Source: a virus
Length of the DNA: 22,535 bases
Reading direction: 5' to 3' (one strand)
IMG/VR virus record: IMGVR_UViG_3300030107_003140
Span: 1 to 22,535 of that record
The position numbers and the translations under genes were made by a program. Shown here piece after piece: positions 1 through 11,275 of the stretch (positions within the stretch are counted from its first letter, which is position 1; each line of letters starts with the position of its first letter). The notes beneath the pieces were generated by a model. The model was not told where the DNA came from. It saw only the letters and a program-made list of their open reading frames with translations, and made no database searches.

Positions 1-177
1 GAAGTAGATTGCACCATAGAAGAATACACTGTTCAAGCTAAACGCAGAAAAAAGATTGCTTCATTTTTAAAATGTGAGCATACAGATATAGTAGCATTTA
101 GAGAAGATCGTGGAAATACTTACGCCCTAATGGATATAAATGTTTTCTTATTATTATTAAAAAAACTGAAAGGATAA
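1..177 (+). CDS. Partial hypothetical protein, 3' end only
   Basis: The reading frame is open from the first base to a TAA at 175-177, giving 58 residues; the start lies left of the window. The visible part reads EVDCTIEEYTVQAKRRKKIA and ends with a leucine run followed by KKLKG. It is basic in the first third and has no motif that I recognise. The next gene starts 3 bases after the stop, and its SD (AAAGGA) lies in this gene's last codons, so the two are probably co-transcribed and translationally coupled. A small regulatory or DNA-associated protein is possible, but nothing in the sequence proves it. Confidence 0.7.
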   Translation, partial: EVDCTIEEYTVQAKRRKKIASFLKCEHTDIVAFREDRGNTYALMDINVFLLLLKKLKG

Positions 178-755: not shown

Positions 756-765
756 AAAACTATAA
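637..765 (+). CDS. Possible short ORF, 42 aa from TTG (21 aa from ATG at 700)
   Basis: The frame is open from about 616 to a TAA at 763-765. From the TTG at 637 it would read LRFRQNFYKTLTKLKGPFGL and continue through WMKIKLINESIC, a believable basic peptide. From the only ATG (700-702) it has 21 codons, with no good SD. Its stop overlaps the AAGGGG that serves as SD for the next mini-ORF, fitting a coupled chain. Against it are the absence of an SD for either start and the fact that the region is also explained by an inverted repeat. I give it low confidence and list it so it is not lost. Confidence 0.25.
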   Translation: MRFRQNFYKTLTKLKGPFGLWMKIKLINESICLVGALNLKKL

Positions 766-844
766 GGGGCAAAAATGCTTAATGTTATGTTATTGGGATG
801 TCATTCCCTCCTTGTCTTAGCGGTGATAGCTACCATGCCCCTTA
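763..844 (+). promoter_or_regulatory. Structured leader with SD buried in a 9-bp stem
   Basis: TAAGGGGCA (763-771) pairs perfectly with TGCCCCTTA (836-844). Inside are GGGA/TCCC (795-798 with 805-808) and a weaker TAGC/GCTA (818-821 with 829-832), giving a three-way-junction layout. The stretch is clearly richer in GC than its surroundings, a usual sign of structured RNA in an AT-rich genome. The 5' strand of the stem is AAGGGG, five bases before the ATG of a 25-residue ORF (775-852), so folding would hide that SD. The gene at 854 lacks its own SD, so its translation may depend on opening this stem. Whether it senses a ligand, a protein (perhaps the zinc-ribbon product) or nothing is unknown. 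Confidence 0.55.
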
Positions 845-852
845 ATAATTAA
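775..852 (+). CDS. Hydrophobic mini-protein or leader peptide, 25 aa
   Basis: The ATG at 775 follows AAGGGG with a 5-base spacer, one of the best SDs in the left part. The peptide is strongly hydrophobic across residues 4-21 (VMLLGCHSLLVLAVIATM), enough for one short membrane helix, and ends PLNN. Its TAA (850-852) is one base from the ATG of the zinc-ribbon gene at 854, which has no visible SD, so coupled re-initiation is likely. The last codons contain the 3' strand that would pair with the SD, so ribosome passage would itself open or close the structure. It could be a true small membrane protein, a leader peptide, or an accidental frame in a structured RNA. Confidence 0.45.
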   Translation: MLNVMLLGCHSLLVLAVIATMPLNN

Positions 853-853
853 T

Positions 854-1105
854 ATGGAAACAAAACTACCCTGGTACTTAAATCCCATTGTGGATTTTAA
901 AAAACCTCCTAGGAGATCAAATCTTCTACATAGATGCTCTTTAAGACATTGTGTAGAATGTAAAAAAGTATGGCAATATGATTATTCTAATCCAAACAAT
1001 AAAAAGTTTATTAAATATGATGATATGCCAAAATATGGTTTAACTAAAAAAACTTGCGAAAAATGCAAACAAAGAAAGGTGCAACATGAAAATACCTGTC
1101 AATGA
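854..1105 (+). CDS. Small zinc-ribbon protein, 83 aa
   Basis: Two CxxC knuckles are visible, C33-x2-C36 and C68-x2-C71, with an aromatic W40/Y42 just after the first pair. This is the pattern of a zinc ribbon of the DNA/RNA-binding or protein-contact type; exact ligand and partner are unknown. C28 and C82 lie outside the two knuckles. The region from the first CxxC to the second aligns by eye with the C-terminal half of the 120-residue protein at 1518: CxxC-x3-W-x-Y, then a basic spacer, then Y/F-D-x-x/L-P before T-C-x-x-C-K. The two look like paralogues. The ATG lies one base after the mini-ORF stop and lacks an SD. A short hairpin (AAATCC/GGATTT, 880-897) lies near the start. Confidence 0.75.
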   Translation: METKLPWYLNPIVDFKKPPRRSNLLHRCSLRHCVECKKVWQYDYSNPNNKKFIKYDDMPKYGLTKKTCEKCKQRKVQHENTCQ

Positions 1106-1280
1106 ACAAATGTTAATTCTTGAAGAAGAAAATAATGATTTAAGAGAATTATTAAAAGAGTCTAGAGATTTTTTAGCAAAAATAGGAACATTAAAACCTA
1201 TTATAATGCAGGAATGTAAAGACTTAATAGAAAAAATAAATAATCACAGAACATATAAACATAACAATGTTAGTACTTGA
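1086..1280 (+). CDS. Small coiled-coil hypothetical protein, 64 aa
   Basis: The start overlaps the end of the zinc-ribbon gene by 20 bases and is preceded by AAAGG at about 6 bases from the ATG. The product begins MKIPVNEQMLILEEENNDLR, with heptad-like Leu and Glu spacing over residues 8-50, suggesting a helical or coiled-coil dimer. It has a single cysteine and no membrane segment. No family was recognised; short coiled coils of this sort are common in phage early regions. Its end overlaps the 47-residue membrane protein gene by 14 bases, so these three genes form one coupled set. Confidence 0.65.
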   Translation: MKIPVNEQMLILEEENNDLRELLKESRDFLAKIGTLKPIIMQECKDLIEKINNHRTYKHNNVST

Positions 1281-1410
1281 TATAGCCGAATGGATAGCTA
1301 ACTTTTTTATATTAGGAATAGCTGCGCTTATATGGGTAATAGCTATTTTTATAACAATGGCTTTATTTTCTGTAATTATAGAAAGAATACAAAAATACTT
1401 AGTTAAATAA
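1267..1410 (+). CDS. Small membrane protein, 47 aa
   Basis: The ATG at 1267-1269 opens a frame ending at the TAA at 1408-1410. Almost the whole chain from residue 8 to 38 is hydrophobic (WIANFFILGIAALIWVIAIF, continuing ITMALFSVII), followed by a basic tail (ERIQKYLVK). That fits one long or two tightly packed membrane helices with the positively charged end inside the cell. It overlaps the preceding gene by 14 bases and has no strong SD, so translation is probably coupled. A role in superinfection exclusion, host membrane takeover or lysis timing is possible, but nothing distinguishes these. Confidence 0.6.
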   Translation: MLVLDIAEWIANFFILGIAALIWVIAIFITMALFSVIIERIQKYLVK

Positions 1411-1496
1411 GAGGCAAGGGAAAGTATAATGGTGACTCCTAATATCTGGACACCGAGCCGCCAATACCTATCGATAGGTGCTTTCCCTTCGCTTCT
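1410..1496 (+). ncRNA. Three-way-junction RNA candidate upstream of the second zinc-ribbon gene
   Basis: The outer stem pairs 1410-1424 (AGAGGCAAGGGAAAG) with 1481-1496 (CTTTCCCTTCGCTTCT), 15 base pairs with one bulged C and one G-U pair. Inside are two further hairpins. GGTG/CACC (1431-1434 with 1451-1454) is continued by TCC/GGA (1437-1439 with 1448-1450) across a 2-base bulge. ACCTA-TCGA-TAGGT fills 1466-1479. The element is about half G+C in a region nearer one third. It ends 21 bases before the gene at 1518, whose own SD (AAAGGA) stays outside the fold. It also encloses the SD and body of a 24-codon ORF. A cis-acting leader or free small RNA is likely. Confidence 0.6.
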
Positions 1497-1503
1497 GAAA
1501 TAA
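1429..1503 (+). CDS. Possible leader mini-ORF, 24 aa
   Basis: The ATG at 1429 has AAGGGA eight bases upstream, and the frame runs 24 codons to the TAA at 1501-1503 (start MVTPNIWTPSRQYLSIGAFP). The SD lies in the 5' strand of the 15-bp stem, while the 3' strand lies in the last codons, the same arrangement as the 775-852 ORF. Codons such as CCG, AGC and CGC are unusual for this AT-rich genome, which argues that RNA pairing rather than protein sequence is under selection. The stop is 14 bases before the zinc-ribbon start at 1518. It is best taken as a possible leader peptide. Confidence 0.3.
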   Translation: MVTPNIWTPSRQYLSIGAFPSLLK

Positions 1504-1517
1504 AAAAAGGATAACAA

Positions 1518-1880
1518 ATGAGAAACCGACCTGATGGCTTAAAGCCTGAAGGTCGGATTTCCAGAGACAAACTTGCAGAACTCAAGTATAAAAAAAGAAC
1601 AAATGCTGAAATAGAAACTCTTCGTTTTTATTTTAATGATGATTGGTTTGATGATGCATATACATTTTTTGTTAATTCTAGGTATGGTAGAAGAAACTTA
1701 AAAGGAAGTGCTTACCCATTACAAAAATGCACTTCTTGTAATCGTATATGGAATTATCATATTGTAAAAAAAAGAATCAAATCAAAGCAAACTCAAATAA
1801 AAGATGTCGAATATTGGGATAAATATAAAAGATTTGACCGATTACCTATGGAGAAAGTTACTTGCCCTAATTGTAAATAA
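1518..1880 (+). CDS. Zinc-ribbon protein, 120 aa
   Basis: C71-x2-C74 and C116-x2-C119 make a four-cysteine zinc ribbon in the C-terminal half, with W78/Y80 after the first knuckle as in the 83-residue paralogue at 854. The N-terminal 65 residues are an added, mostly basic and aromatic region (around FYFNDDWFDDAYTFF) absent from the shorter protein. The start has a good SD (AAAGGA, 7-base spacing). A perfect nested hairpin covers codons 3-13, so the mRNA start could be occluded. Nucleic-acid binding is plausible, and autoregulation through the leader or the hairpin is an inference. The stop is only 2 bases from the converging end of the giant gene on the other strand. Confidence 0.75.
   Translation: MRNRPDGLKPEGRISRDKLAELKYKKRTNAEIETLRFYFNDDWFDDAYTFFVNSRYGRRNLKGSAYPLQKCTSCNRIWNYHIVKKRIKSKQTQIKDVEYWDKYKRFDRLPMEKVTCPNCK
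1526..1556 (+). promoter_or_regulatory. Nested hairpin at the start of the zinc-ribbon coding region
   Basis: CCGACCT (1526-1532) pairs with AGGTCGG (1550-1556) and GGCT (1536-1539) with AGCC (1543-1546), around a TAA loop. The two stems are separated by a symmetric internal loop, GAT opposite TGA, which can form tandem G-A pairs plus U-U, a typical protein- or ligand-recognition motif in RNA. It starts 6 bases after the ATG. The paired bases encode RPDGL and PEGR, so the coding sequence tolerates or is shaped by the structure. A translational operator is inference. Confidence 0.5.
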
Positions 1881-1882
1881 AA

Positions 1883-4800
1883 TTACTCTGATTCTAATAA
1901 GTTTCTTTTCTCTCTGCCAATGCCATGTATAGGTATGCCTGTCATTTGCTCTACCCACATTTCTGGAGTTTCTATTGTTTTTGCAATACTACGTCCAAAT
2001 CTTCCAAATGGAAAAAATGTCCACAGATAATAATCAGCAAATCGTTCCCAATTTCCATTAATAGTTGCATTTATTAAGGTCATAGGATACCTAGCAATAG
2101 GTGGTGTAACAATTTGAAGTGGTGCTAATACAGGATGAGGCCACGAAGAAAAGAATGCTCTTTCTCTTTCACGCTCATCACCAAATAACCAATCAGCAGT
2201 ATCTTGCATCCAATTTAAAGGAGGTGGTACAGTTGCATCAAATACACTTCCTGTAAACATATTAGCTAATGATAATGCAAACATATCTAATGTAGCTAAT
2301 CGTTTAAATTTTTCAAAAGATTCAGTTCCTTGTTTAAATCCGTATCTAGCAGCACGTTGATATGTTTGTCTTCTAAATCGTACAGAGTTCCATGCAAAAG
2401 GATGAAAACGTGTCATTACTTTACCAATTGCAGTTCTACTGTAATTGGGTCTAAATGCGCTATGATATAAAAACTGAGTAGCTTCAACACCTTTTAATGC
2501 CATATTAATAACATATGGATCATTGTGTTTTATGTTGGGTATAAAATCTTTTAAATTGTTATATGCATTTAAATAATGTGCAAAAAAACTATCTGTTCTA
2601 AGTTTTTTCTCAGACCAACGCATTGGAATAGCTGCTACATTTGCAACTGCAGTTGTTATTTTATATTTTTTAGCAATTGAAAGAACATCTGCTTCACTTA
2701 TACTAGGACTTGCTTTTAATCTTTCTTGTACTTCACGTAAAAATTCTTTTGCTTCTTTACTAGCAAACTTTCGTTCAAGTGATGCTTCTGTAACATAAAA
2801 AGTTTCATGCGCTCCACTTTCTTCTGCAAATCTACGTAAATGGTCTGATGTTGTTATTTTAGTCCCATCATTTAATTTTGTATCTTTAAATATAGTAGCT
2901 AATAATTTCTTTTTATTAAATGTTGCAGTAGTAAAATTGTATAAACCAGCATTTGCTATTGTATTATGACTACCTCCAAAAAGATTGGCTACTGCTGTTT
3001 TAGGATGTGATAACAATGTAATAAGTGACCATTTTGCTTCAGCCGCACCCATTGAATGCAATATTCTTGATAATGCTTGTCTTCTAGCTTCAGGGCTTTT
3101 TGGAAGTTCTCCATAAAAAGGCAATTTGGGTTTATCTTTTCTGCCCCACAACTTTGTACTTATTTTATCTAATCCATTAACCCCAGCTTCATCTGTTACA
3201 TAATAAAATAAACGCTTATCCCATGTTTGAAATTTCTTATTTTTTGCTAATTCAGATTCAGCTCTTTCTTTCATAGCATCAGAAATTGTATATTCTCTAC
3301 CATGAGCCATTCTTTGAGCCATAGTTTCAGCTTGGTCTTCAAATATTTTTTTTACTGTTTTAAATTTAAGTTTTTTACCTTTTCTTTCTCTGTCGTATGC
3401 TTTAATAATTGCTTCGTATTTTGCAATTTCTGATTTTTTAAGTCCAAATGTTTTAGGATTATACAAAGTGGGATGTCCAAGAACATCTGTAGTATAATCA
3501 CGCATAAGATTTGCCCACTCTTCAGTTATTTCTTTATCGCTAAGTGGATTTAATTCAGTATATCTATCAATTGCTTTTTTACTAATTAATGTAGTAGCGT
3601 TCTTAAAAAATGAATTAATCCATTGTTCTTGATATGCCTCTATAACTTTAAATTCATAACTAGCTCCTGGCATAGGCTCTTCACCTCTAGATTGACCACT
3701 GCTAGGTTTACTAAAATGACCATCCCGTACTGCTTCTTCTTTATTTTGATATTTTTGCCACAGATAATTTGCACCTTCTTGACCACTACCATTATCTAAT
3801 GTAAGAGATTTACCTAATTGCGCTTCAAACATTGTTTCAAGTTCTGCAATCTTTTCATTTATAATTGTCCTAGTCATTGCATCCTGTGCTTCTTGACCAA
3901 TAGTATTTTCTATTCGTTTTAAATCATTGTTTTTAAATGCAAAACGCTCATCTATTCTCATTTCAGTAACAAATTCTCTCTGTTTATCTGTAAGCGTTGG
4001 ATCATAGATGTATTTTTTTTCAAGATTTTTTCTTAATTCAATGCGTTTATTTTCCATAAAATTCTGCATTTCAATTAAACTTGCTTTTGTATCTCCATGA
4101 AACATTCTTGGAAAATATCTACCTTCTACTTTACCAATGCCTTTAAAATAAGTAGGGTTATCTAAGTAGCCTTTAAATTGAACTGAATCAGAAAGTTTGT
4201 ATCTCTGTCTATATCTTTCCCGATAAGCCTTTTGTTTATTTACAGGCATATCTTTAACAAATTGTTCTAATTGCTGTTCATATCGTATACGCCCTAATAA
4301 TTCTGCGCTAAATCCATTTTTACCTAACTGTTCTAAAATATATCTGCCATTTTCTGCTAAAGGCTTTAAATATTTGTTCTCTAGATATTCAAGATTTGCT
4401 CTACCAGTTTTTTCATTATACTTTAAAAATGTATTCTGTTTATTAAATGCTTTGTAATCAGGTTTTTGTGCTTTCTCACCTGTTAATGAATAAGTGTCTA
4501 TTAAACTAAAATCTATATTTGATTTAACAAGTGTATTATAAACTTGACTTAAAAATGCATCATTCTGCTCTGCAATAGTGCGCATTAACTGCTCACCAGT
4601 AACTTCTTTTTGCTGACCTTTTTCTATTATTTTATATGTATTATCTTTTAATGAATTATATAATTTTTCGTTTTTCTTCCATTCTTTCCAATTAAAATCA
4701 GTTTCTAATTCATTTCTACCTTCGTTTCTAAGCCATCTAGTCATTGCTGCTTGATGAAGTTTATTTGCTTCACTAACACCATTAGGTAAATCTAGTATAT

Positions 4801-7800
4801 CTTTACGCCACGTAAAAAATGCATCTCGGTCTTCCTGTGCGATATTAGTTACTATATTTTGCAAATTGTATATACTACCAAAACTATTTTGTAAATGTTG
4901 CATTGTACCTAATGGTACTTTAATACTTGTTCTTCCAAGATTGCCTTTGGCATCTCTAAAATTGACTTCTTGAACAATTGGAATACTGTGGTCATGGGCA
5001 AATTGTCTTTCTGCAACTCTTTGAGGGAATCTATATCTATCTAACCAATTTGGTCTATTTCCTTTTGGTTTTACAGATGTAATATATTCAAGAGTATTTG
5101 CAAAGTGCTTTAAATCTGCGTAAGTAGCTTCTTCAATGCCATAACCTACCCTATCCCTAGATTCTATCATTTTAATAAATACATCATTAATTGAGTCCAA
5201 TGCGTGTTCTGGTAATTTTTTATATGCTTCTACAATACGTTTTGCATCTGCTTTTGCATCTTTTGGAGCCTTAGTGCTTTTTTCAGACACTTTTAAATCA
5301 AAAAGATTTCTAAAGGGCATTAATTGCTCAAACTTTTCTTTTATGCCTTGGTCTTTTTGTTGAGGTGTTTCTGGGCCTTTTTTATTAACATTTTCCATTA
5401 CAGGGTCAACACTAGCTTTTTTAACTTCAGCTTTTATTTTAGGTACAACTGCTCTATCAAATATTTGACTAAATGTATTCATAAAAAGCTGTTTACTAGA
5501 GTTTGGTATCTCATTAGTTAAATAAGGATAATTATGTCTACTTGTTTTATTATAAAAACCTTTAAAATTATCTAATTGTTCTTCAAGACGAGCAAGTTCA
5601 TATCTTTTTCTTTTTGAATCTGGTAAAGACCTTACTTGTTCTAATTTATTTTCATAAACAGTCCTTAATTCCTCAATGCTTCTTGTTTGAGGATATAGAC
5701 TGCCAAGCATATACATATCAAAATATCTAGATGCATTTATAGGATTGATTCCTAGTTCTTCTGCAGTTTCAATAATATCATTTCGTCTATTTCGTATTTG
5801 TTCTTCTGCCTGTTCAATAGTATGTACATTTTTATTCTTACGTAAAGATGGGTCAATAGAGTATATTAATGCATAATCATCTTTAGAGCTAATTGCTTCT
5901 ATTGCAATTCTATCTGCAAACTCTATAAAATTTTCCTCTGATAAACCTCGTTTAAGCATATTGTTATATAATCGTTCACCAGCTTTATTTTGAATCAATA
6001 CGCTAGTAAGGTCCATTAAATCATTTGTTTTATATGTAGTTTCTTTTACTGCTCTTTTTTTACCTCTTGCTTTTGTTCGTCTTTTGCCAAGATCAGGTTT
6101 AACAGTTATATTCATTCTGCGAATCATTTTTAACAAACTTGGGTCTTGGAATCCACCTTGAAATTCGCGTAAAAAACGATTGTATTTCTTAAAATCCATA
6201 TTAGATACTTTTAATGGACTTGGTTCTATTAAATTCTCTGACCTACCATACGCCTTTGAAAGTTCAATAAGGCTTGATTGAAAATTTATTCCCAATTCAT
6301 TAAATTGGTTTAAATTAGTTTGCACATCTTCTAAAGATGGCCTTCTCCCCATATCATCTTTTCTTCTATATAAATTTCGTTTTACATCAAAAATATCTGC
6401 ATATTCAGGTAGATTTTTTAAATCACCAAAAATAGGACGCCTATATAATTCAGCACCAAATTGGTCTTTACTTATTTTACCTTTTTTATTGTAGACATAA
6501 ACTTTAGCATTAGGCATACCTCTTTGCGTTAATACATCTCTCATTTGTATTGCATCTATAAGTTTATAATAACCACTAGAATCTGCAGTTCTTGAAGATG
6601 TTTCTAAAGAATGCTCTTTATATCCCCCAGGTCTATCTAATCCTTCTTTTGTAATAGAGCCAAATTCCATTTCAGCGTATGGTTTATTGTTTCTATCATA
6701 CAATTTAAAACGCTCTTTACCCTTCATTTTTTTAGTTGCTTGTTTATTTATAACATCAGATAAAATAATATTTAAATACTCTTTAGCTGACACTATTTGC
6801 CCCATACCATCTTTACCAGCTTTAGCTGACATACCAGTTCGCAATAAAGCATTGGGCATATATTGAGATATGCTACTATTGATATATGTTAATTCGTTAG
6901 GTGAGCTTTTATCATATATAATATCATTTTTCTTAGCTTTATTTTCTATTGAAGCGCCATTGCGTTCTAAGTTATTTCTTTTCTCATAAACTTCTTTTAA
7001 ATATTCCTTAGGCATACCTTGATAAAGAAATACCTTATCGCCATCTACGTCAGCACCATCAATATAAAAGTGGTCTTTTTGTCTAAGATAAGTACCATAA
7101 TCATATGCACCATTTTTCTTTCCTGTAAAACCATCAAAATACAATACTCTAGTACCACTAATATCTGGACTAGGTACACGCATTACTGCAATACGTAAAT
7201 GCTCTTCTTTAAATTCTTTATCTGATAATTTACTGTCTTCTTTTTTTCTTAACGTAGGGTCTTTATAAGCTTCCCAAGCTTCACCCAATGTTTTATATCC
7301 TTTATGTTTCATATCTTTCATACTATGACCAAGCATAAAATGATCTTCTCTAATTTCTTTATTAGGCAGTCTATTTTTAAATAAAGCGTGATTACCAGCT
7401 ACCCAAGAAGATGCACTAAAATCGTATGTAGGATTTAAATATTTATCTGTAGTATAGCGAACTACTGCATCATTAAAACTTCCAGATTGGTCTTCTAAAA
7501 ATCGTACTGCAAGATGATTATAATCCGTATCTTTAAATTCTTTTGCTATTCTATCTGCATAGGTTTTTGACTCCATTAAATCAATATCATCAATATGGGT
7601 ATCATCACTGCGTTTCCGTTCTTTAGTTATCTTAAAAATGTCATCAACCAACTCTTTAACAACGGGACTTTTAGAATTGCTATTTAAAATATCTGCAATT
7701 TGTTTATGTCCTATTTTGCTTATATTAAAATCTTTAGGAACTTTCATATTAGGATTTTCTAACATTTGCTGGACATAGTTGTTTTGTTTTTCTATGCCTA

Positions 7801-10800
7801 AATATGAATCCTTAAATAATTCCATTAATGCATTATGACCTTTTGCACTAATATTTAACCCAGCAAGGGTACTATGCATTTGTCTTTTAATTGATACAGG
7901 GTCTAAAGCGTGTTTGTCTCCATATACTCCAAAATTAATTCGTAAATCTTCAAAATTAATTTTTGTTGTTTCAGGCACTACTTCTTTACCATCTTTATAA
8001 AACTTGTATTCATTTTTTTCATTTGGATATGCAGTATAAGTTTTGCCAGGATTTACTTTAGCCGCTGATGTCATTACTATCATACTGCCTTTTGTTGGCA
8101 GTACTGAATCAAAGCCTTTTTGACTAGGATGTATCCCTCCCTTAAGTAAAAATAACTTGCCATCTATTTCTGTGGCTATAGTAGGCTTTATATGGCTCGT
8201 AGTGGGGTCTAAACCGACCTCTTTTACTATTTTGTTAAATAGGTCTGTATGAAGAACAATATAGCCATCTACGTCACTTTCATGCATTCTTTTTTCAATA
8301 ACTCTTTTGCCATCTTTAATACGTTCAACATTAAATGTTTCTTGTTTTATTGGATTATTAGGGTCTTTTGCACTTGCCACATCATCAACAAAGATTACAT
8401 CCAATTTATTGTCTTTAGTAAAGTCTTTAAACTTATTAGGATTTAATTCATAATCTTTACTAGAAAGCAAACTGCTACGTTTAACTAGGTCTAATGCACT
8501 TTTAAATTGACCTTTAGGGTCATATAAATAATTGCTTTTAAAAATGTCTTCGTGTAATTCCTTCCAAATGTCTTGAGTTTTTTTACTCATTTTATTAACG
8601 CCAGTAAGTTTTAAAAACTCTTGTTGGTCAAGCTTAAAATGCTCACGTTCTTTTGGCGTTTTCAATATATCATTTAACTTTGCTTTTTTAGTATCGGGGT
8701 GATAAGTCCTTACTATTAACTTACCCTTGTCTTTTTCAGGAGTCCATATGTATTGACTTTTATTGGTTTTACCAACTTGCACCATAAGGTCAGCCATTTT
8801 TTCTGGTGTAAGTAAAAAGTCATACGATAATTCATTTTTTTCATTAAAGCGCATAACTTTAGCTAATGGATCATATGACTTATTACCTTCTATAATCTCA
8901 TCTATTACATAAGTTTTACCATGCTTATATATTTTTTCGTGGGGAAGTATAGGATGAGATAAAATCTTACGTACTCCATTAGAGTACTCTTCTATTTTAT
9001 TTAATTTATTGTTGTCTAGATTAAATGAACTATGGTATTGTTTTTTGTTCTGCCTAAAACGCTCATAACTTTGCACTAATGCTCTATTTATGTTATCTGT
9101 AGGTTTAACACCTAATTCTTTATATACCTCGTTTTTAAATAATGTATATCTGTCAAATTCTTGTTTAACTGGGTCTACAATAGGTTCTTTGACTTTACTT
9201 GTTTCACCTTGTCTCCACACACCAAATGATTCTTTATTATTACCTATTGTTTCCCCATTATTTATTCTGTTTTTAATATATGATAATAATGTATTCATAT
9301 CTGATACATACATATCTTCGTTTTTCATTATTTCAGCTACTTTATTTCGCACACTTTTTGGGTCTTTGTTTTTTCTTATGCCATCAGTTATTTCTTTCTC
9401 TACCAATTTATCAATCAATGGCATTTTTTCAGATTTTATATTTAGAATACGTTGTTTGCTGCCTGTTGTATCTGTATTTAAAAATTCTTCTCGTTTAACT
9501 TTTTCTTTTTGCAATTTTTTAAGTTCTGGTAAATCTTTTTTACTAATACTTCCGTCTTCTTTTCTCAGTGCAACTATTTTATTTTTTATCTCTAAAAGTT
9601 TAGCATCTTCTTTAGGTGTAGTTTTTTCTAAACCTTTGCCTGTTTGCTGACGCTCTTGTTGCTCAGCTAATTTCTTATCTACAGTTTCTTTAGCCTTAAC
9701 TACTTTACCTGCTACTTCAATATCGGTTAATTCATTGCCTTTTTTAGTTTGTATTTGTGTATTAACATCCCTGAAAAGCTTTTTTAATGTAGTATCGCTA
9801 TCTAATTCAGATTGTATTTCAGCATTTTTATTTTGAGTAATTAAATCTTCTGCTGTAAACTTTTTTTCTATATCATTAAAAAACTCATTTCGTTTTCCAA
9901 GTTCATTGTAAATAGAATTGTAATTACCTTCTTTAATCTGCTCTACTTGCTCTTTAGTTAACCCCTTATATATACGTTTAGTTTCACCTTCTAACTTGTC
10001 TGCTTTATATGTATTGATCTCATTACCAATGCGACTGCCTTCTTGAAAAATATTGCCTATTTCCTCATGGGCAGATACAATATCTTTTTGTGCTTCAAAC
10101 TTGTCTTTTTCTGTCATATCCTCACGTGATTTTTTACCACGTGTGCTATACATATCATATTGCTCATTTGCGAATTGATTTCTTAATTCTTGAGCGCCAG
10201 TTGACACATCAAACCTATTAATGCCTTTAGCGTTACTGGCTATATCATTAAATTTTTCTCCAATGTGTTTTTCAAATGTAAATTTTACTTCTGCTTGAGC
10301 ATCTTTAGGTAAAGCACTGAACTCAGGGTCTTCCATCATTTTATAATTCTTTTTAGATGTGTCAGAACTATATTTATTAAAATACTCTCTACCTATTTTT
10401 TGATGTACTGATGGATGTACAGAGCCAAAATAAGCACCAAGCATATATTCGTATATTTGAGTTGCAGTATCAGCACCATGCATAGTAGCCATACCGCCTT
10501 GAAATGCACTTCCAGCTATACCTTTTGCAATTCCTTCTCTTAATCTATTTTCAGCAAACTTTCTAACCATTGGACTAGGTGCGCCTATTGCTTTTTCTAT
10601 TAATTGCCTATAATTACCTATTGTACCAAATGCACCCCCTGCTATTGCCCCATGTATAAAACTATCTTTTATAGCGTCAGGGCCTTTCCAAAACTCGCTA
10701 ACTGCACTAGCAGTACCAAGGTGAACTGCAGATTGTGCAACATTGCCCATAACAGTATTGCCTTTTAAAAAAGCATCTGCCACTCTCCCTGCGTTACCTA

Positions 10801-11275
10801 CATAGTTAGCAAGTACACCTTCACCTACTTCCTTCCCAAGAATTTTATCAGCAGCACGTATAGGAATAGATTTAGTAGCCATTAATCCTCTACCAACATT
10901 TTCTAATTTCCTTGCTAATGTAACTTTACCAGCTTTAGCAACAACACTAGCCCCTGCTTTAATAGGCCCACCTAATAAGCCAGGGACAAAACCAATTAAA
11001 CTACCAACGCTTCTAGATATTTGTTGTGCAGAGGTTACAGGGTCTTTAGTAGCGCCACCAAAGATGTTTAATGGCCCAAGAAACCCTTCAGCTATACCGC
11101 CTATAAATTGACTAACAACGCCTGATTGTTTGCTTTCCTCAACATCCATATTTCTATTGAAATTGATTCCAGCTTCGGATGCGTACTTGGTAAGTTCGTC
11201 TACTTCATCGTCATTAAAAAGATGAGGACTAACACGATACGCATTTATGTATTGTGCAAGTTGATTTGGATCCAT
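1883..11275 (-). CDS. Giant virion-type protein with single-chain two-barrel RNA polymerase core, 3130 aa
   Basis: The central third carries RNA polymerase signatures. R1366-x-P1368 with G1374 leads to the loop GADVDGDK, in which D1409, D1411 and D1413 would bind the catalytic metal. About 360 residues earlier a second barrel-like segment contains K1030, K1040 and K1045. Downstream, around 1475-1496, a Gly/Lys-rich stretch (RTGMSAKAGKDGMGQI) resembles the segment following the active site in these enzymes. Residues 55-140 are glycine-rich and hydrophobic, 300-700 are highly charged and helical, and the C-terminal 400 contain the LxxHPKTxxxNLxG pattern near H2757 and several hydrophobic stretches, as in phage internal virion or polyvalent proteins. 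The family known for this plan is the crAss-like phage virion RNAP. The start lies 4 bases after the upstream stop and lacks an SD. No frameshift was seen. Confidence 0.85.
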   Translation of the reverse strand: MDPNQLAQYINAYRVSPHLFNDDEVDELTKYASEAGINFNRNMDVEESKQSGVVSQFIGGIAEGFLGPLNIFGGATKDPVTSAQQISRSVGSLIGFVPGLLGGPIKAGASVVAKAGKVTLARKLENVGRGLMATKSIPIRAADKILGKEVGEGVLANYVGNAGRVADAFLKGNTVMGNVAQSAVHLGTASAVSEFWKGPDAIKDSFIHGAIAGGAFGTIGNYRQLIEKAIGAPSPMVRKFAENRLREGIAKGIAGSAFQGGMATMHGADTATQIYEYMLGAYFGSVHPSVHQKIGREYFNKYSSDTSKKNYKMMEDPEFSALPKDAQAEVKFTFEKHIGEKFNDIASNAKGINRFDVSTGAQELRNQFANEQYDMYSTRGKKSREDMTEKDKFEAQKDIVSAHEEIGNIFQEGSRIGNEINTYKADKLEGETKRIYKGLTKEQVEQIKEGNYNSIYNELGKRNEFFNDIEKKFTAEDLITQNKNAEIQSELDSDTTLKKLFRDVNTQIQTKKGNELTDIEVAGKVVKAKETVDKKLAEQQERQQTGKGLEKTTPKEDAKLLEIKNKIVALRKEDGSISKKDLPELKKLQKEKVKREEFLNTDTTGSKQRILNIKSEKMPLIDKLVEKEITDGIRKNKDPKSVRNKVAEIMKNEDMYVSDMNTLLSYIKNRINNGETIGNNKESFGVWRQGETSKVKEPIVDPVKQEFDRYTLFKNEVYKELGVKPTDNINRALVQSYERFRQNKKQYHSSFNLDNNKLNKIEEYSNGVRKILSHPILPHEKIYKHGKTYVIDEIIEGNKSYDPLAKVMRFNEKNELSYDFLLTPEKMADLMVQVGKTNKSQYIWTPEKDKGKLIVRTYHPDTKKAKLNDILKTPKEREHFKLDQQEFLKLTGVNKMSKKTQDIWKELHEDIFKSNYLYDPKGQFKSALDLVKRSSLLSSKDYELNPNKFKDFTKDNKLDVIFVDDVASAKDPNNPIKQETFNVERIKDGKRVIEKRMHESDVDGYIVLHTDLFNKIVKEVGLDPTTSHIKPTIATEIDGKLFLLKGGIHPSQKGFDSVLPTKGSMIVMTSAAKVNPGKTYTAYPNEKNEYKFYKDGKEVVPETTKINFEDLRINFGVYGDKHALDPVSIKRQMHSTLAGLNISAKGHNALMELFKDSYLGIEKQNNYVQQMLENPNMKVPKDFNISKIGHKQIADILNSNSKSPVVKELVDDIFKITKERKRSDDTHIDDIDLMESKTYADRIAKEFKDTDYNHLAVRFLEDQSGSFNDAVVRYTTDKYLNPTYDFSASSWVAGNHALFKNRLPNKEIREDHFMLGHSMKDMKHKGYKTLGEAWEAYKDPTLRKKEDSKLSDKEFKEEHLRIAVMRVPSPDISGTRVLYFDGFTGKKNGAYDYGTYLRQKDHFYIDGADVDGDKVFLYQGMPKEYLKEVYEKRNNLERNGASIENKAKKNDIIYDKSSPNELTYINSSISQYMPNALLRTGMSAKAGKDGMGQIVSAKEYLNIILSDVINKQATKKMKGKERFKLYDRNNKPYAEMEFGSITKEGLDRPGGYKEHSLETSSRTADSSGYYKLIDAIQMRDVLTQRGMPNAKVYVYNKKGKISKDQFGAELYRRPIFGDLKNLPEYADIFDVKRNLYRRKDDMGRRPSLEDVQTNLNQFNELGINFQSSLIELSKAYGRSENLIEPSPLKVSNMDFKKYNRFLREFQGGFQDPSLLKMIRRMNITVKPDLGKRRTKARGKKRAVKETTYKTNDLMDLTSVLIQNKAGERLYNNMLKRGLSEENFIEFADRIAIEAISSKDDYALIYSIDPSLRKNKNVHTIEQAEEQIRNRRNDIIETAEELGINPINASRYFDMYMLGSLYPQTRSIEELRTVYENKLEQVRSLPDSKRKRYELARLEEQLDNFKGFYNKTSRHNYPYLTNEIPNSSKQLFMNTFSQIFDRAVVPKIKAEVKKASVDPVMENVNKKGPETPQQKDQGIKEKFEQLMPFRNLFDLKVSEKSTKAPKDAKADAKRIVEAYKKLPEHALDSINDVFIKMIESRDRVGYGIEEATYADLKHFANTLEYITSVKPKGNRPNWLDRYRFPQRVAERQFAHDHSIPIVQEVNFRDAKGNLGRTSIKVPLGTMQHLQNSFGSIYNLQNIVTNIAQEDRDAFFTWRKDILDLPNGVSEANKLHQAAMTRWLRNEGRNELETDFNWKEWKKNEKLYNSLKDNTYKIIEKGQQKEVTGEQLMRTIAEQNDAFLSQVYNTLVKSNIDFSLIDTYSLTGEKAQKPDYKAFNKQNTFLKYNEKTGRANLEYLENKYLKPLAENGRYILEQLGKNGFSAELLGRIRYEQQLEQFVKDMPVNKQKAYRERYRQRYKLSDSVQFKGYLDNPTYFKGIGKVEGRYFPRMFHGDTKASLIEMQNFMENKRIELRKNLEKKYIYDPTLTDKQREFVTEMRIDERFAFKNNDLKRIENTIGQEAQDAMTRTIINEKIAELETMFEAQLGKSLTLDNGSGQEGANYLWQKYQNKEEAVRDGHFSKPSSGQSRGEEPMPGASYEFKVIEAYQEQWINSFFKNATTLISKKAIDRYTELNPLSDKEITEEWANLMRDYTTDVLGHPTLYNPKTFGLKKSEIAKYEAIIKAYDRERKGKKLKFKTVKKIFEDQAETMAQRMAHGREYTISDAMKERAESELAKNKKFQTWDKRLFYYVTDEAGVNGLDKISTKLWGRKDKPKLPFYGELPKSPEARRQALSRILHSMGAAEAKWSLITLLSHPKTAVANLFGGSHNTIANAGLYNFTTATFNKKKLLATIFKDTKLNDGTKITTSDHLRRFAEESGAHETFYVTEASLERKFASKEAKEFLREVQERLKASPSISEADVLSIAKKYKITTAVANVAAIPMRWSEKKLRTDSFFAHYLNAYNNLKDFIPNIKHNDPYVINMALKGVEATQFLYHSAFRPNYSRTAIGKVMTRFHPFAWNSVRFRRQTYQRAARYGFKQGTESFEKFKRLATLDMFALSLANMFTGSVFDATVPPPLNWMQDTADWLFGDERERERAFFSSWPHPVLAPLQIVTPPIARYPMTLINATINGNWERFADYYLWTFFPFGRFGRSIAKTIETPEMWVEQMTGIPIHGIGREKRNLLESE
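7016..8278 (-). other. Predicted RNA polymerase catalytic core (two double-psi beta-barrels)
   Basis: This marks residues about 1000-1420 of the giant protein. The upstream barrel candidate runs from DVDGY (1001-1005) through IKPTIATEIDGKLFLLKGG, with lysines placed as in the first barrel of cellular-type and RdRP-type enzymes. The second barrel has VMRVPSPDISG and ends at DVDGD (1409-1413, bases 7037-7051), the universal DxDxD metal loop; the following K1414 is also usual in crAss-like members. The spacing between the two barrels fits known single-chain enzymes. The boundaries are judged by eye. Confidence 0.75.

Follow-up and report, generated by a model that had tools for sequence, protein, structure and literature searches.

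Candidate intercistronic RNA modules and a start-codon hairpin in a small-gene operon of a phage group

Comparison of the window, a 22.5-kb virus record, with 15 related phages (16 phages in total) revealed two kinds of structured elements in an operon of small genes: a chain of modules, EX-E0-E1, that stays with the gene p180, and a hairpin at the start of the zinc-ribbon gene znB. As the best explanation, to which we assign a probability of about one half, we propose an intercistronic chain of RNA modules anchored to p180, together with an operator at the znB start codon. In the polycistronic mRNA of these temperate phages, EX, E0, and E1 would be RNA modules arranged head to tail between cistrons; either as part of the operon transcript or after excision from it, they would work as RNA and would most likely set processing, stability, or translation of the surrounding small-gene operon. 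The znB start hairpin would be a translational operator that an RNA-binding protein opens or closes, thereby setting the output of znB. First candidates for this protein would be the zinc ribbons, in an autoregulatory arrangement resembling that of Mu Com on mom.

The phages and their small-gene operon

DNA and protein BLAST of the window against GenBank phages gave no match, and single-protein searches with znA and with znB returned no relatives. Related phages were found in IMG/VR by two routes, i.e., via the C-terminus of a 3130-aa protein (L002-L006; 94-52% identity) and via a resolvase, the end of which corresponds to window positions 1-177 (close group, L022-L038). The two sets overlap, with some contigs bearing two labels (L025, L022, L027, L029, and L036 in the resolvase set, L002-L006 in the other); L035 and L034 are nearly identical in the studied region. 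The gene for the 3130-aa protein (1883-11275) occupies ~42% of the window, and the last 1000 residues of the protein matched no PHROG of known function. Near the same region, L031 (7571-7643) and L038 (8162-8234) have a complete tRNA gene on the minus strand.

All operon genes described here are on the + strand. The small protein p180 (180-440) belongs to a family that we defined by HMM in the 16 phages. Among the window protein and its 15 homologues, identity falls to ~20-30%, yet a C-terminal C-x4-C-D is invariant, as if this tail were a metal site, a redox site, or a processed peptide; in L029, p180 was assigned by its C-terminus, CKTGVCD. The other small proteins are p440 (440-631), p1086 (1086-1280), and p1267 (1267-1410), which is hydrophobic and membrane-like. 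The two zinc-ribbon genes are znA (854-1105; 83 aa) and znB (1518-1880; 120 aa). The first-pass annotation described them as paralogues with a shared CxxC motif, and this is confirmed at the level of protein sequence: CxxC-x3-W-x-Y ... P ... CxxC is common to both, iterative HMM searches merged the two families, and profile-profile comparison gave a probability of 94% (E = 1.5e-7). The CxxC...CxxC pattern, a predicted zinc-binding module, is invariant in 16 znB and 14 znA proteins. At the Pfam cut-off, no zinc family was assigned to znA, znB, or any aligned member; the znA profile matched no PDB sequence, and Foldseek returned nothing for AlphaFold models of znA and znB, which were of moderate confidence.

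Four of the relatives have an integrase/attP segment between znB and the gene for the 3130-aa protein (about 7440-8502 in L003; also in L002, L004, and L005). In L002-L004, the integrase gene and an attP with the 3' part of a tRNA adjoin znB, and in L005 the integrase is accompanied by another tRNA-like sequence. The 45-nt attP core of L003 and L004 occurs exactly in 17 bacterial contigs, of which 13 are named Marinimicrobia or Neomarinimicrobiota and four "bacterium". Because the attP core of these integrase-bearing relatives matches their genomes, the host of this phage group is probably Marinimicrobia (SAR406), an abundant, uncultured ocean phylum. A prophage search of 245 Marinimicrobia-group genomes found neither znB nor E0, and a search for the resolvase in GTDB genomes was also negative. 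The integrase/attP segment is missing from the window, in which the end of znB (1880) nearly meets that of the gene for the 3130-aa protein (1883), encoded on the other strand; the window phage may therefore have lost lysogeny.

Structured modules beside p180

The strongest stem in the region is that of E0 (637-755, + strand; z = −4.21), which consists of an outer stem (TTGAGGTTCAG/CTGAACCTCAA), an inner helix, and a conserved 3' linker ending GGTTGGCGCC. The outer stem has 10-13 bp and is 99.3% paired in the 16 phages, with 17 both-side changes vs 5.0 in shuffles. Its inner part varies on both strands (GGTTCAG/CTGAACC, GGCTCA/TGAGCC, GACTCAT/ATGAGTC, GGTTATTG/CAATAACC, and GACTTC/GAAGTC), and the inner helix is variable in single-sequence folds. 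The 3' linker ends GRUUGGC 2-6 nt ahead of the closing strand, and this ending (GGUUGGCGC) is conserved in sequence, whereas the stems conserve pairing only. An E0 covariance model matched all 16 phages, as it must by construction, and additionally the more distant phage L088 (E = 7e-4). L088 and a second distant phage, L075, have E0 with other stem sequences beside the same 3' motif; E0 of L075, which has one bulge, was recognized by eye. Across IMG/VR, matches to sequence patterns for E0 and EX were confined to this phage group and one GC-rich contig, L104, which proved unrelated when read.

E0 is followed by an optional last module. In five phages (the window, L022, L025, L027, and L029), this is E1, which starts 5-7 nt after E0 and at 763-844 of the window has an outer stem (TAAGGGGCA/TGCCCCTTA), a 5-nt loop, a 3-bp P2 (GCT/AGC), and the 3' loop TACCA. 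In six other phages, a module that we refer to as E1' lies 12-49 nt after E0 and is laid out as nine pairs, a loop CANUA, three or more pairs, and a loop GACC. E1 and E1' share place and topology and may be homologous, but the E1' model does not detect E1. Three phages have a further module, EX, 5-7 nt ahead of E0. The order EX-E0-E1 is fixed, and E0, E1/E1', or EX account for the top-ranking stems 3' of the resolvase gene in almost all relatives. Two phages have an extra 45-49 nt with possible small hairpins between E0 and E1' (L036, 4661-4711; L037, 4751-4797), and within the L036 segment the E0 3' strand, GAGAGTCTCA, occurs again.

Covariation is clearest in E1', in which both partners have changed at 11 of the 12 pairs among the six phages. 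All E1' pairs are intact (100% paired; no broken pair in 71 cells), both-side changes number 26 vs 8.9 in shuffles, and pairing dropped to ~50% when partners were slid by one column as a control. These counts, like those for E0, are inflated by the relatedness of the sequences. Compensatory changes in related phages, which the first-pass annotation had named as a check, support RNA stems, but the signal is weak in E1 (only 2 pairs), and E2, a stem upstream of znB, is represented by two sequences only. At the gathering score, Rfam 15 has no family for the window; at E values up to 5, positions 600-1900 gave chance matches only, far below gathering, and the 15 relatives gave tRNA genes only. Based on these alignments, E0 and E1' are clearly RNA families with compensatory evolution that are absent from Rfam 15, and the same would hold for E1 and EX on fewer sequences.

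Inverted repeats covary in DNA as well, and the modules come and go between genes across the phages, as might be expected if the stems had no RNA role and were instead cruciforms, binding sites for proteins, or small mobile hairpin remnants in the DNA. We regard such an origin as improbable because all stems have one orientation relative to transcription, asymmetric internal loops are conserved, and the znB hairpin is locked to the start codon. Moreover, non-Watson-Crick pairs on the + strand are all G-U, numbering 6 in module stems and 8 in that of the znB start, with no A-C among them, an outcome favored by our choice of stems, which permitted G-U.

The position of the chain follows p180. 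E0/EX starts 2-9 nt past the p180 stop codon in eight phages and ~195 nt (194-196) past it in the window, L022, L023, L025, and L027, in which p440 lies between; in three phages, it ends 25-26 nt ahead of p180. Downstream of the chain is znA in some phages and otherwise genes for small proteins that are membrane-like, HTH-like, or cysteine-rich. Because p180 is always near while the downstream gene varies, we link the chain to p180 and not to the zinc ribbons. Positions 1-2000 contain no + strand promoter-like site, as judged by the sigma-70-type consensus only, and no terminator-like site; therefore, the chain is probably transcribed together with the operon.

Varying downstream genes are unusual for a cis regulator and count against an intercistronic module chain as the explanation. 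Moreover, E0 is present in a single copy in every relative, independently of the downstream gene and always near p180, and its linker, unlike the stems, conserves sequence. These features would fit a stand-alone noncoding RNA, processed or separately transcribed, that acts in trans, possibly in complex with the p180 protein. We consider this alternative possible but doubtful given the absence of + strand promoter-like and of terminator-like sites in 1-2000 and given that, in half of the phages, p180 and the RNA are separated by just 2-9 nt. An antisense target of the E0 linker also had no consistent place in the phages, and in 41 Marinimicrobia genomes only scattered 3-mismatch matches without a common locus were found. 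Neither did an attenuator or riboswitch fit the chain: no leader peptide is conserved among the mini-ORFs considered below, the downstream gene is inconsistent, and we found no expression platform, with no terminator-like site in 1-2000 and any downstream SDs located outside the modules. The missing platform counts against our preferred explanation as well.

We tentatively suggest that EX-E0-E1 could represent a new modular class of phage RNA, composed of hairpin modules beside p180 that can be exchanged while their order stays fixed, and that it could function, as RNA or as RNP, when Marinimicrobia are infected. In the literature that we found, phages of Marinimicrobia are little described, and the new RNA families mark a group that attP connects to this probable host.

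Mini-ORFs and stems upstream of the zinc-ribbon genes

The first-pass annotation had focused on E1 and E2, proposing that each zinc-ribbon gene follows a leader in which a stem masks the SD and the end of a mini-ORF and that the zinc-ribbon proteins themselves perhaps control these leaders. Both stems exist beyond chance (E1, 763-844, 9-bp outer stem; E2, 1416-1489, 12 bp), and three outer stems of the observed strength were found in 441-1517 in 0 of 300 dinucleotide shuffles. The window also has the SD-like sequences AAGGGG and AAGGGA in the 5' strands, 5-7 nt from the start codons of two + strand ORFs (775-852, 25 codons; 1429-1503, 24 codons), but these features are not conserved in the relatives. 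E1 measures 82, 76, 78, 64, and 71 nt across the phages, differences that are not divisible by three. L022 and L027 have no ATG for its mini-ORF; in L025 the frame closes 24 nt short of the stem end, and in L029 it runs into the next gene. The E2 mini-ORF of L025 terminates 13 nt ahead of the stem end, and the peptide that it specifies is unrelated. Because the mini-ORFs are lost or reframed in all relatives and the peptides are unrelated, we rejected the masked mini-ORF as a selected feature; judging from these comparisons, the mini-ORFs play no part in the mechanism.

The proposed connection to the zinc ribbons did not hold either. In the full feature extent, E2 spans 1410-1496 (+ strand; z = −4.31) and comprises the 12-bp stem AAGGGAAAG/CTTTCCCTT, its extension AGAGGC/GCTTCT, and the inner hairpin CCTATCGATAGG. 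It is stable and present only in the window and L025, and at least three relatives with znB (L022, L027, and L029) lack it. An E1-type module is absent directly upstream of 8 of 14 znA genes, and znA is the next gene after such a module in only 6 of 11 cases. Thus, the same layout at both genes is peculiar to the window genome, and the pairing of stem and gene breaks in relatives. Since relatives keep the proteins without the stems, an outcome that the first-pass annotation had itself named as refuting, we rejected, for E1 as well as E2, a regulatory module repeated at the two genes; masking leaders under zinc-ribbon control are a very improbable explanation overall, despite the well-placed SD-like sequences in the window. 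In the clade of the window, no SD separates E1 from the znA ATG, which lies ~8-12 nt past the last module, and in most other phages an SD follows the module.

Other stems occur at similar places. At the E2 site before znB, L026 has a 16-bp stem element of unrelated sequence (5200-5268), and in the more distant phage L088 a long hairpin of 13 bp (AATAGGAGAGGGT...ACCCTCTCCTATT; 378-464) lies directly 5' of the znA homologue. A pairing between CCAAU of E2 and the GGUUGG linker of E0, spotted by eye, was dropped, as it involved two sequences only.

The znB start hairpin and known systems

Control of a zinc-ribbon gene at the RNA level gains support for znB, from another hairpin, at the start codon. 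Like E0, the stronger element, it had escaped the first-pass annotation. In the window, this hairpin, E3 (1526-1556, + strand; z = −5.86), lies on znB codons 3-13 and is formed by CCGACCT...AGGTCGG closing GGCT...AGCC. Every one of the 16 phages has structure in the region from −35 to +42 around the znB start (z below −2 in 15; mean, −3.4), and the mean z of the start region is ~0 for znA, p180, p1267, and p440.

The hairpin takes two forms. The type I form, with the stem inside codons 3-13, is found in the window, L022, L025, L027, and L029, and covaries weakly, at 2 pairs, a level that 36 of 500 shuffles reached. In the other 11 phages, a 7-bp stem, the 3' strand of which begins at the G of AUG, pairs an untranslated strand with coding bases and in most cases has an SD-like GGAG in the loop; all 7 pairs are present in all 11 phages (null, 3.7% each). 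In L026, the Ala-Ser codons are GCGAGT where others have GCTTCC, and pairing is kept because the untranslated strand has changed to ACTCGTC. Similarly, L036 has GGGAGCC/GGCTCCC, in which A-U is replaced by G-C and Ser by Pro, again with pairing kept. Compensatory changes in the start-codon form thus span the border between untranslated and coding sequence, even where "MAS" is recoded. Because untranslated bases pair with coding bases, the hairpin is best read as translational control of znB. With pairing kept while codons are rewritten, it would allow translational control by phage zinc ribbons to be tested directly and on a small scale.

T4 gp32 and RegA are phage proteins that repress translation by acting where their own mRNA starts, on its structure or sequence. 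The likeness to znB is in the proposed control of the own mRNA start; proteins and operators differ. Com of Mu is a small zinc protein whose site of action is close to a hairpin that includes the mom start codon in its stem (PMC6483171), so small zinc proteins can act on start-codon hairpins. The phages described here likewise have a small four-cysteine, predicted zinc protein with a CxxC...CxxC module and a hairpin where znB translation starts, on the AUG itself in 11 of 16 phages. Com controls another gene, mom, whereas here the hairpin is on the zinc-ribbon gene itself, and no profile relation to a described zinc-finger regulator family was found at the Pfam cut-off or, for the znA profile, in the PDB.

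For the chain, structured RNAs of marine phages or marine metagenomes include manA, wcaG, PhotoRC-II, and Ocean-V, of which manA and wcaG are found in cyanophages carrying metabolic genes (PMC2864571). These four are Rfam families and did not match the present modules. Another parallel is offered by the RNase III sites of T7, which are intercistronic processing hairpins in polycistronic phage mRNA. As in T7, hairpins with an internal loop lie between genes of a polycistronic phage mRNA; unlike the T7 sites, the present modules have conserved loop sequences, are of several types, and follow a fixed order.
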